The notes beneath the pieces are model-generated. The model did no database searches. It was not told the origin of the DNA and was given only the letters and a program-made list of their open reading frames with translations. A stretch of DNA of 64,000 nucleotides from Haloglomus salinum (lineage in GTDB: Archaea > Halobacteriota > Halobacteria > Halobacteriales > Haloarculaceae), in the NCBI RefSeq assembly GCF_024298825.1, contig NZ_CP101153.1:2480001-2544000 (forward strand), in the 5' to 3' direction. Positions 37,663 to 40,555 of the stretch are shown piece by piece (position 1 is the first letter of the stretch; the number at the start of each line of letters is the position of its first letter). Made by a program: the position numbers and the translations under genes.

Positions 37663-38598
37663 ATGGCGCGCATCGTCACCGACGATGTCATCCGCGACGC
37701 CCTCCCGATGCGCGAGGTCGTGAAGACGATGCGGATGGCCTGTCGCGAGCAGGCCCACGGCTCGCTGTACGCGCCGCCGCGGTGGTCGCTGGACGTGCCG
37801 GACGGCTCGCTCGTCCTGACCGCGGGCGCGGCGATGGGCGTCGGGACGATGGGCTTCCGCGCGTACGAGACGCTCGGGCGGGGCCCGGGCCACGAGGGGC
37901 TCGTCGCCGTCTGGAACGCCGAGGCCGGCTACTTCGACGGCTGCATCGTCGGGAACCGGGTCGGCCTCCTGCGGACGGCCGGCCTCAACGGCGTCGCCGC
38001 GGACGCGCTCGCCCGTGCGGACGCGACCACGCTCGCGGTCCTGGGCACGGGCCCGCAGGCGCGCCAGGGCGCGCGGGCGGTGTGTGCCGTGCGTGATGTC
38101 GACGCGGTGCGCGTGTTCTCGCCGACCGCCGAGCATCGGGAGACGTTCGCCGAGCGGATGCCCGAGAAGCTGGGGCTCGACGGCGACGCCGTGACGGCCC
38201 ACGACGGCCCGGAGGCGGTGGTCCGGGGTGCGGATGTGGTGTACGTTGCGACCGACAGCGAGACGCCCGTGCTGGAGCCCGAGTGGCTCGACGCCGGTAC
38301 GCACGTCCACACGCTTGGGCCGAAGTGGGCCGACGGGAACGAGCTGCCGACAGCCGTCTTCGACCGCGCGGACGTGGTGGCGACGGACTCGCTGAACCAG
38401 GTCGCGGCGTACGAGGGCGAGGGCGGGTTCGTGGTCGACGACTGGGAGGAACGCGTCGTCGAACTCGGCCCCCTCGTGGTGGAGGGCGTCGAGCGGGACC
38501 CCGACGCCGTCACGGTGTTCTGCTCGGTCGGGCTGGCCGGGACGGAGGTGGTGCTGGCGGATCGATATCTGCGTGAACTGGAGCGGAAAGAGGAATAA
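37663..38598 (+). CDS. Ornithine cyclodeaminase / mu-crystallin family dehydrogenase
   Basis: 311 residues. Rossmann motif LGTGPQARQGARAV, substrate-side TMGFRAYETLG, GLLRTAGLNGVAADALAR (the family block around the AATSALA site), and TLGPKWADGNELP near the end. Members include ornithine cyclodeaminase, alanine dehydrogenase and ketimine reductase; which one cannot be settled. All produce or reduce imines, which fits the RidA-like partner directly upstream. Confidence 0.85.
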   Translation: MARIVTDDVIRDALPMREVVKTMRMACREQAHGSLYAPPRWSLDVPDGSLVLTAGAAMGVGTMGFRAYETLGRGPGHEGLVAVWNAEAGYFDGCIVGNRVGLLRTAGLNGVAADALARADATTLAVLGTGPQARQGARAVCAVRDVDAVRVFSPTAEHRETFAERMPEKLGLDGDAVTAHDGPEAVVRGADVVYVATDSETPVLEPEWLDAGTHVHTLGPKWADGNELPTAVFDRADVVATDSLNQVAAYEGEGGFVVDDWEERVVELGPLVVEGVERDPDAVTVFCSVGLAGTEVVLADRYLRELERKEE

Positions 38599-38792
38599 CG
38601 TTATAGATTTTGGCTTATATTATTTAATGTCTGGGTTACAAACTCATCGGCTATTGCAAAGTCTTATCGGTTCGATAAACTCGTAATTCGGTCTCACGAC
38701 GACAGCGACCGCGGAGCCGCCTGCGAAGCCCTCGCGCTCTCGGGGTGCCGGGAGTCGCTGCGCTCCTCGGCCTCGCTTCGCTCGGCCTGCGG

Positions 38793-38913
38793 TGCTAGCT
38801 TCCTCCGGGCACCGCCGAGAGCGCTCGCCCTTCGATTCCGCCAGGAATCCCCTGACCGGCCGAGCGTTCGCGCGTGGTGGTTCCGGGCTAGCAGGGTGTC
38901 CCCACACCTCCCC
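38793..38913 (+). repeat. Left arm of a long imperfect inverted repeat
   Basis: Shares, in order, TGCTAGCTTCCTCCGGGC (16 of 18 with the other arm), TCGCCCTTC, TTCCGCCAGGA and CACACCTCCCC with the reverse complement of 39187-39284. Followed inward by a perfect 12-bp inverted repeat (38913-38924 with 38976-38987). Confidence 0.75.
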
Positions 38914-39186
38914 GCCCGCTCGCCGGGGCGGTTCGACCCCTCGCCCGCAAGGGGCTCGGGCGTCTCACCGGCAGAGGCGAGCGGGCGCTTCCTGGTTCCG
39001 GAACCGGCCGGGCGATTCAGCCGCTCGGCTGGTGCGTGCTCCCCTGTCAGTCGAACCGGCGCGCGCTGGCGAGCGGCAGCCGGCTCTCGTGAGCGGCCTC
39101 GTGCCGCGAGCAACCACGCCGGCTGCCGCGTACCTCTAAGCGCGCGAGGGCTGAGAAGCGCAGCGCAGCGAGCATCGCAGGCGGCT

Positions 39187-39284
39187 GGGGAGGTGTGAGG
39201 CCCACGGACCCGACTGACGAATCCGCGGTCCTGGCGGAAAGTCTGAAGGGCGAACCCGCTCCGGAGGCCCCGAGGAAGCAAGCA
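39187..39284 (-). repeat. Right arm of the long imperfect inverted repeat
   Basis: Read on the minus strand it gives TGCTTGCTTCCTCGGGGC, TCGCCCTTC, TTCCGCCAGGA and CACACCTCCCC in the same order as the left arm. Followed inward by a perfect 11-bp inverted repeat (39074-39084 with 39118-39128). The two arms point towards each other. Confidence 0.75.
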
Positions 39285-39373
39285 CTGCACCACATGCCCG
39301 GAACGGCGGGTGAGGGCTTCAGCAGCCGTCCCGATTCCGCCGAACGCACCCGGTCAACGATTCTCCCTGTCCC

Positions 39374-40555
39374 CTAGTTCGCCGTCGAGACGATCTTGAT
39401 GACGTCACCCTCGCTCAACTCGTGGTCCTCGCTGATGCGGCGGTTCTCCCGGGCGTCGATGGCGTGCAGATATCCGTCGCCGATATCCGAGTGAACCGCG
39501 TATGAGAGGTCCTTCGGGGTCGAGCCGTCGGGCAGCAGGAAGGCGTCGGGCAGCATGTTCCCCTGCCCGTCGGTCCAGTGGGTCTCGTTCTGGACCGGGT
39601 AGGCGGTGAAGTGGTCGAGCAGGTCGTAGACCGCGTAGTTGAGCGCGGTCTGGACGCCCGTGCCGCCGAACTCGTCCATCACGCCGCGAATCTGCTCCAG
39701 ACCCTGCTGCTGGGCGTCGCTCAGGTCGGCCACGATGTCGAAGTCCGCGTCGCCGGGGTCGTAGTCGACGGCACCCTTCTCGGCCGCCCTGCGGAGCGCG
39801 AGTTCCCCCTCGGCGGTCGCCGGAATCACGTGGTCGGCCGCGTCCTGCAGGCGCTCGATGTTGTCGTCGGGGGCGATGTCGGCCTTGTTCGCGATGACGA
39901 CGAGTGGTTTCGTCTGCGCGCGCAGGTCCCGCGCGAGGCGCTCGCGGTCCGCGTCGTCCCAGGAGAACGGGTCGTCCGGGTACTCCATGTTCCGGAGCAC
40001 CATCATCACGTCGTACTCCGTGGCGCCGACGCCGGTCAGCATCTCCGTCAGGGCCGCCTCCTGGTCGAAGTCGGGGGAGCGGGACTTGCGCTGGATGGAC
40101 TCCCAGTTCTTCTCGACGATGCTGGCCAGCCACAGGTCCAGTTCCTCCTGGATGAACTCCACGTCCTCGACGGGGTCGTACTCGCCGACCTCTACCGGTT
40201 CGCCCTCCGCATTGGTGCCGCCGGAGGCGTCGACGACGTTGAGGATGACGTCCGCGCCGGTGAGCGCATCGAGGAACTGGTTGCCCAGGCCGCGTCCCTC
40301 GTGGGCGCCCGGGACGAGCCCGGCCACGTCGAGCAGTTCGACCGGGACGTAGCGCTTCCCGTCGTGGCAGTGTTCGTCGCCACACCGCTCCTCGCGGTCG
40401 AGACAGGGACACTCCGTGCGGACGTGGGTCACCCCCCGGTTCGGGTCGATGGTGGTGAACGGGTAGTTGCCGACATCGACGTCCGCGAGCGTCGCCGCCG
40501 TGTAGAACGTGGACTTGCCCGCGTTGGGCTTGCCCGCCAGCGCGACCGAGAGCAT
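39374..40555 (-). CDS. ychF: YchF/OBG-type GTPase (redox-regulated ATPase YchF-like)
   Basis: 393 residues from ATG 40555. G1 AGKPNAGKST, G3 LLDVAGLVPG (DxxG), G4 NKAD, and a C-terminal TGS domain ending LSEGDVIKIVSTAN. An archaeal Cys/His insert (ECPCLDREERCGDEHCH) between G1 and G3 may bind zinc. Ribosome-associated GTPase/ATPase of the OBG-HflX superfamily. Upstream it is divergent from the HAD gene. Confidence 0.93.
   Translation of the reverse strand: MLSVALAGKPNAGKSTFYTAATLADVDVGNYPFTTIDPNRGVTHVRTECPCLDREERCGDEHCHDGKRYVPVELLDVAGLVPGAHEGRGLGNQFLDALTGADVILNVVDASGGTNAEGEPVEVGEYDPVEDVEFIQEELDLWLASIVEKNWESIQRKSRSPDFDQEAALTEMLTGVGATEYDVMMVLRNMEYPDDPFSWDDADRERLARDLRAQTKPLVVIANKADIAPDDNIERLQDAADHVIPATAEGELALRRAAEKGAVDYDPGDADFDIVADLSDAQQQGLEQIRGVMDEFGGTGVQTALNYAVYDLLDHFTAYPVQNETHWTDGQGNMLPDAFLLPDGSTPKDLSYAVHSDIGDGYLHAIDARENRRISEDHELSEGDVIKIVSTAN

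Follow-up and report, generated by a model that had tools for sequence, protein, structure and literature searches.

In enterobacteria, the REP and BIME sequences associated with RAYT, a single-copy Y1 transposase whose gene the repeats flank, are intergenic imperfect palindromes, often arranged as head-to-head pairs, for which recognition as single-strand DNA is presumed. REP sequences are 20-40 bp long (PMC3733652). The palindrome-associated transposable elements (PATEs) of Haloquadratum walsbyi (Dyall-Smith et al., 2011, PMC3119063) are non-coding, occur in dozens of copies, and carry near-terminal palindromes, e.g., of 22 bp, which are related to those of an IS605-type transposon; they lack inverted terminal repeats, insert after a short target oligonucleotide without target duplication, undergo internal deletion between repeats, and can be replaced by a variant at the same site. 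Two other kinds of short, transposase-free, dispersed sequences in haloarchaea are MITEs, whose terminal repeats are common to a known transposon and whose target is often duplicated, and small mobile repeats (SMRs), whose copies are commonly more than 95% alike and among which SMR-A, of about 110 bp, produces no target duplication and has an unknown mover (PMC3119063).

Here, we describe a block of Haloglomus salinum DNA that is one copy of a large dispersed family and is probably a non-autonomous, palindrome-ended mobile DNA element that works in folded single-stranded form, in the manner of PATEs. As in PATEs, the copies number in the dozens, no coding capacity was found (no Pfam family above cut-off, and a length too short for a transposase), palindromes lie near both ends in the subfamily with defined ends, no target duplication was detected, internal deletions occur between repeats, and a given site appears to have had one variant replaced by another; the preference for a short oligonucleotide before the insertion is a similarity confined to the type-B subfamily. 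In contrast, the arms are facing hairpins of ~127 nt, the family is spread over an order whereas PATEs were described in one species, and the three Y1 loci of the host revealed no connection with an IS605-type transposon. Since IS605-related palindromes define PATEs, the element is likened to PATEs in its mode of action and is not classified among them. Neither terminal inverted repeats from a parent transposon nor target duplication, both expected of a MITE, was seen, and the left-end pattern of type-B retrieved 14 copies in four genomes, all non-coding. The length of SMR-A is close to that of one arm, whereas copies within a genome are typically 70-80% alike and hence more divergent than SMRs. 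With REP/BIME and IS200/IS605 the family shares imperfect palindromes between genes, often in head-to-head pairs, conserved unpaired bases in covarying stems, a presumed recognition as single-strand DNA and a tetranucleotide-type target, but its arms are archaeal and exceed REPs three- to sixfold in length, and no dedicated RAYT was found in the host genome, where none of the three Y1 genes adjoins an arm. The long structured facing arms and the order-wide spread set the family apart from the published descriptions of PATEs, MITEs and SMRs (PMC3119063). No description of it, or of its exact inner motif GGGACTGAAAGGGGC, was found in the open-access literature searched, and the family has apparently not been catalogued before.

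The stretch of DNA analysed (the window, 64,000 nucleotides) corresponds to positions 2,480,001-2,544,000 of the 4.19-Mb H. salinum chromosome (G000), and the element occupies a 775-bp gap between two genes that converge on it. An earlier note on this sequence had described the neighbours as housekeeping-type genes, and Pfam agrees, identifying an ornithine cyclodeaminase/mu-crystallin family gene on the plus strand (37663-38598; PF02423, E=7e-33; codon-score gene call) and a YchF/YGR210-like GTPase gene on the minus strand (39374-40555; PF08438, E=3e-34, with PF01926 and TGS). The same note had recognised a long inverted repeat with two related elements facing each other, and both features were recovered: self-BLAST aligned 38788-38846 with 39229-39289 on opposite strands (79% identity over 62 bp, E=2e-8), and a repeat search paired 38900-38919 with 39181-39200 (85% complementary). 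However, the unit extends farther outward than had been noted, and each arm also forms an imperfect hairpin of its own, a feature that had been missed. The left arm is full-length and spans 38722-38848 on the plus strand (131.9 bits with arm model R1, and supported by covariation), with the outer end GAAGCCCTCG and the inner tail GCCCTTCGATTCCGCCAGG. The right arm, in inverse orientation at 39230-39320 on the minus strand and delimited by self-BLAST, arm lists and orthologue alignment, is degraded, with ~75 bp missing between two ACCCGC repeats in comparison with the copy at the same site in H. halophilum. Between the arms lies a non-coding core of ~380 bp (38849-39229, from a three-species alignment) with two inner perfect hairpins, both already noted, the first at 38913-38987 (12-bp arms 38913-38924/38976-38987) and the second at 39073-39129, whose arms (39073-39084/39118-39129) are of 12 bp and not 11 bp. 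Comparison of the outer flanks of 79 arms also delimited, with an inferred left limit, a plus-strand flank outside the left arm (38685-38721, TCGGTCTCACGACGACAGCGACCGCGGAGCCGCCTGC), which matches the spacer tandemly repeated in 50-58-bp units outside the arm in other copies.

Searches for further copies gave 88 matching stretches in the host chromosome by BLAST, which also retrieved fragments from many further genera of the order, and 108 arms at 74 places with a covariance model of the arm, so that the possibility raised beforehand of arms occurring nowhere else does not hold. The 74 host clusters comprise 30 facing pairs, two reverse pairs, one triple and 41 single arms, and the inner distances of the facing pairs are 61-63 bp (n=7), 255-317 bp (n=20) or longer (n=3). 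According to an alignment of 40 copies, what is conserved is the two facing arms, GAAGCCCTCG...CCGCCAGG and the reverse complement of this sequence, whereas the core that they enclose is variable. All 41 copies examined are intergenic. The similarity of only 70-80% between most copies indicates that they are old and, therefore, that movement is rare, a point against the mobile-element reading. Among 393 genomes, the arm model matched 69 of the 81 sampled from the host's order and none of the 312 from elsewhere in the phylum; eight candidates were scored per genome, so a missing match in the remaining 12 genomes of the order does not establish absence. A 32-base arm pattern gave at least 120 matches in 84,980 species genomes, all haloarchaeal among the matches listed, which include Halorubrum, Haloarcula, Halosimplex, Halonotius, Halobacterium and Halorussus. 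The family is thus class-wide in occurrence yet order-restricted. Plasmid records contained four weak matches to the element, phage records none, and the exact arm pattern was absent from viral contigs; this scarcity on plasmids and absence from viruses counts against a mobile element.

Traces of movement were found by comparing Haloglomus species. At 1,385 kb of the H. salinum chromosome (L068), a unit of ~471 bp is present where G001, G003 and H. halophilum (G002) contain 26-36 bp or some other short stretch instead, and no target duplication accompanies this filled/empty site. The inserted unit is 94% identical to the H. salinum copy at 708 kb, which in turn shares 98.5% identity over 468 bp with a relative located at a different site (2,594 kb) in H. 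halophilum. Loss was also observed, since a full two-arm element of H. halophilum (2,785 kb) corresponds in H. salinum to the scar CACCTACGAGGGCTTCG, in which the two outer ends are fused, and to no trace at all in G003. Hairpin tips have been lost between species as well, leaving, for example, GAAGCCCTCGCGCGCTCGCCCTTC. The element beside ychF is shared by three Haloglomus species (H. salinum, G001 and H. halophilum), whereas no arm was found within 1.5 kb of the ychF end in G003, the fourth Haloglomus, or in 13 genomes of other genera, which implies arrival within the genus and inheritance since. The window copy is therefore a gain within Haloglomus that has been vertically inherited and whose right arm is now decaying. 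In a separate case, the loci at 840 kb of H. halophilum (L310) and 886 kb of H. salinum (L313) have the same flanks and different variants, as if one copy had replaced another.

Sharp ends and a target rule were established for the type-B subfamily only, the window copy being of type-A. The 14 type-B copies, of the subfamily to which the unit at 1,385 kb belongs, begin with AGGG and finish with GCAC, extreme ends that are not inverted repeats, yet one arm is an inverted copy of the other, and the arms start ~55 bp inside the left end and ~65-85 bp inside the right end. The four bases preceding the left end at nine independent type-B sites are CTGT (four sites), GTGT (two), TTGC (two) and GGAG (one), that is, (C/G/T)TG(T/C) at eight of the nine, and none of these sites shows a target duplication. 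Dispersal, gain of a site, loss with a scar, the sharp ends of one subfamily and covarying stems are thus demonstrated here, while the lack of target duplication, the short motif before the left end and the palindromes inside both ends point to a transposase supplied in trans and acting on folded single strands. Most simply, a single-strand (HUH/IS200-IS605-like) transposase would recognise the folded arms and copy or move the unit to intergenic sites, after which copies would decay as hairpin tips flanked by short repeats are deleted, as whole units shrink to their outer ends and as copies exchange sequence with one another. The Y1 loci of the host were considered as the autonomous partner and discarded, as their three transposase genes are associated with different, short palindromes and no arm was seen beside any of them. 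That no transposase was found, and that sharp ends are confined to type-B, weighs against the mobile-element reading. A vague likeness was observed between GAAAGCCC...TTCAGTC and one IS200-type palindrome. A family of this kind accounts for many of the long GC-rich gaps that look 'empty', and of the spurious open frames, in the genomes of haloarchaea, and its filled, empty and decayed sites form a natural series in which to study the movement and loss of folded DNA.

The unexpected conservation of some cores between species is at odds with this interpretation and raises the testable question of why some copies are almost frozen. In the three-species alignment, the window core (38851-39221) is 98.1% identical to that of H. 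halophilum and 84.2% identical to that of G001, and the corresponding identities of H. salinum ychF at third codon positions are 0.832 and 0.784. Of 25 orthologous sites of H. salinum and H. halophilum, 13 reach 96.5-100% identity over the most similar 200 bp of the gap, and the flanking genes are 0.78-0.94 identical at third codon positions (median 0.844). G001, an equally distant third species, is only 74-84% alike at the same sites; in the L061 gap, for instance, identity is 93.9% with H. halophilum vs. 73.9% with G001. Core identities of 97-100% beside normally diverged flanks are contrary to the prediction of neutral decay and count against the mobile-element reading. General homologous recombination was rejected as the cause, because silent sites adjoining the elements are not raised (0.877 near vs. 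0.867 far), except at L078; third codon positions right next to the elements are 73-100% identical (0.88 when pooled). At L078 (~2,451 kb in H. salinum), compared with L116 of H. halophilum, near-identity reaches the gene ends and third positions are 1.00 identical near the element and 0.725 far from it, so that this tract, unlike the other sites, is likely the product of recombination. Either the two species have recently exchanged elements, or the cores are constrained and those of G001 have been replaced by conversion from other copies. Exchange between species that is limited to the elements, or constraint on individual elements, is a tentative proposal that we consider doubtful; it would address the contrast between cores of 97-100% identity in the two species, adjacent silent sites that differ by 6-25% and copies within one genome that differ by 20-30%. 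If true, allelic copying between species (homing-like) or essential locus-specific work would be new behaviour for a small palindromic repeat.

The same cores are an argument for a functional chromosomal DNA site that was spread by transposition and is kept for host use. REP/BIME-like DNA sites have binding, supercoiling, recombination or transcript-end roles between genes, and a comparable host function would fit the 97-100% identity between H. salinum and H. halophilum at about half of the 25 orthologous sites. Some excess of convergent gaps (15 of 41 vs. 52 of 242) points in the same direction, although it is suggestive only. Nevertheless, the similarity of only 74-84% in the third species indicates that constraint is not uniform, 12 of the 81 genomes of the order gave no match with eight candidates scored in each, and copies get lost. 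Altogether, retention for a host function appears unlikely.

The structure of the arms bears on whether selection acts on DNA or on RNA. In a full-length alignment of 60 arms from Haloglomus and other genera, RNAalifold predicted 24 pairs, and at 19 of these both bases have been exchanged in part of the sequences; the lowest stem position, for example, is G-C in 32 arms and C-G in 27. Covariance modelling had been proposed beforehand as a check, and a covariance model is what recovers the host arms. Fixed unpaired stretches persist in the internal loops and the tail, which suggests, as an inference, that a protein recognises the folded strand. Correction of quasi-palindromes as the sole source of covariation was set aside, because these conserved unpaired stretches persist on both sides of the stems. 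Strong covariation together with unpaired stretches conserved across the order, and the intergenic position of all copies examined, would also be expected of a structured non-coding RNA family, in which each arm would be an RNA hairpin and a pair would represent either a single large RNA or two RNA genes that converge. However, among 3060 pair cells from 132 arms, 2870 are Watson-Crick, 40 are G-T (1.3%) and 56 are A-C, whereas G-U pairs amount to 217 of 1861 (11.7%) in haloarchaeal tRNA stems of the same loci, a control in which the drawing tool leaves A-C pairs unmarked. A strand selected as RNA should show G-U clearly above A-C mismatches, and the counts favour neither strand, in contrast to the strand-specific pairing of an RNA family; it therefore seems to be as palindromic DNA that the arms are selected, or maintained. 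Rfam returned only tRNAs for the window at gathering scores, and a single chance-level match (E=0.24) for the block itself. The dozens of copies, their gain and loss between close species and the deletion of hairpin tips are also hard to reconcile with an RNA gene, and we regard this alternative as quite improbable. Convergent structured RNAs and a mobile palindromic element had both been put forward in the earlier note: covariation that is almost free of G-U and without strand preference, and the lack of an Rfam match, disfavour the former, while filled and empty sites, copies with defined ends, scars left by decay and dispersal in dozens of copies support the latter. A decayed protein gene or transposon remnant, such as the 199-aa frame at 38694-39293 on the minus strand, has in its favour the long open frames, which are present by composition, but is highly improbable, since that composition is basic and non-haloarchaeal, the stems covary whatever the frame, and Pfam found no family above cut-off in the frames tested; the earlier note had seen no open frame of normal composition in the block.

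Several minor features accompany the arms of the PATE-like element. A hairpin-rich insert of ~60-100 bp, CCGGCAGAGCTTGCTCTGCCGAC...GTTCGCCTCGCT...GGCTCAC, with short CTTC-type repeats on both sides, was seen at the base of some arms, as in L155 (~1,979.4 kb in H. salinum) compared with L287 of H. halophilum, and also in L061, L069 and L099. Its appearance is that of another small mobile element, one with the palindrome as its target, and the ~100-bp insert that distinguishes L155 from L287 behaves like SMR-A entering palindromes (PMC3119063). Outside many arms, the outer 17 arm bases and a spacer of ~34-40 bp form tandem units of ~50-58 bp that are near-identical within a locus (e.g., L100:8393, L075:3528, L083:3008 and L074:4353). 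Finally, an expanded tandem array of ~850 bp, built from the 16-bp unit ACTCGCTGCGCTCCTC / ACTCGCTTCGCTCCTC, lies inside one arm at L074:2990-3870 (~2,021.2-2,022.1 kb in H. salinum).
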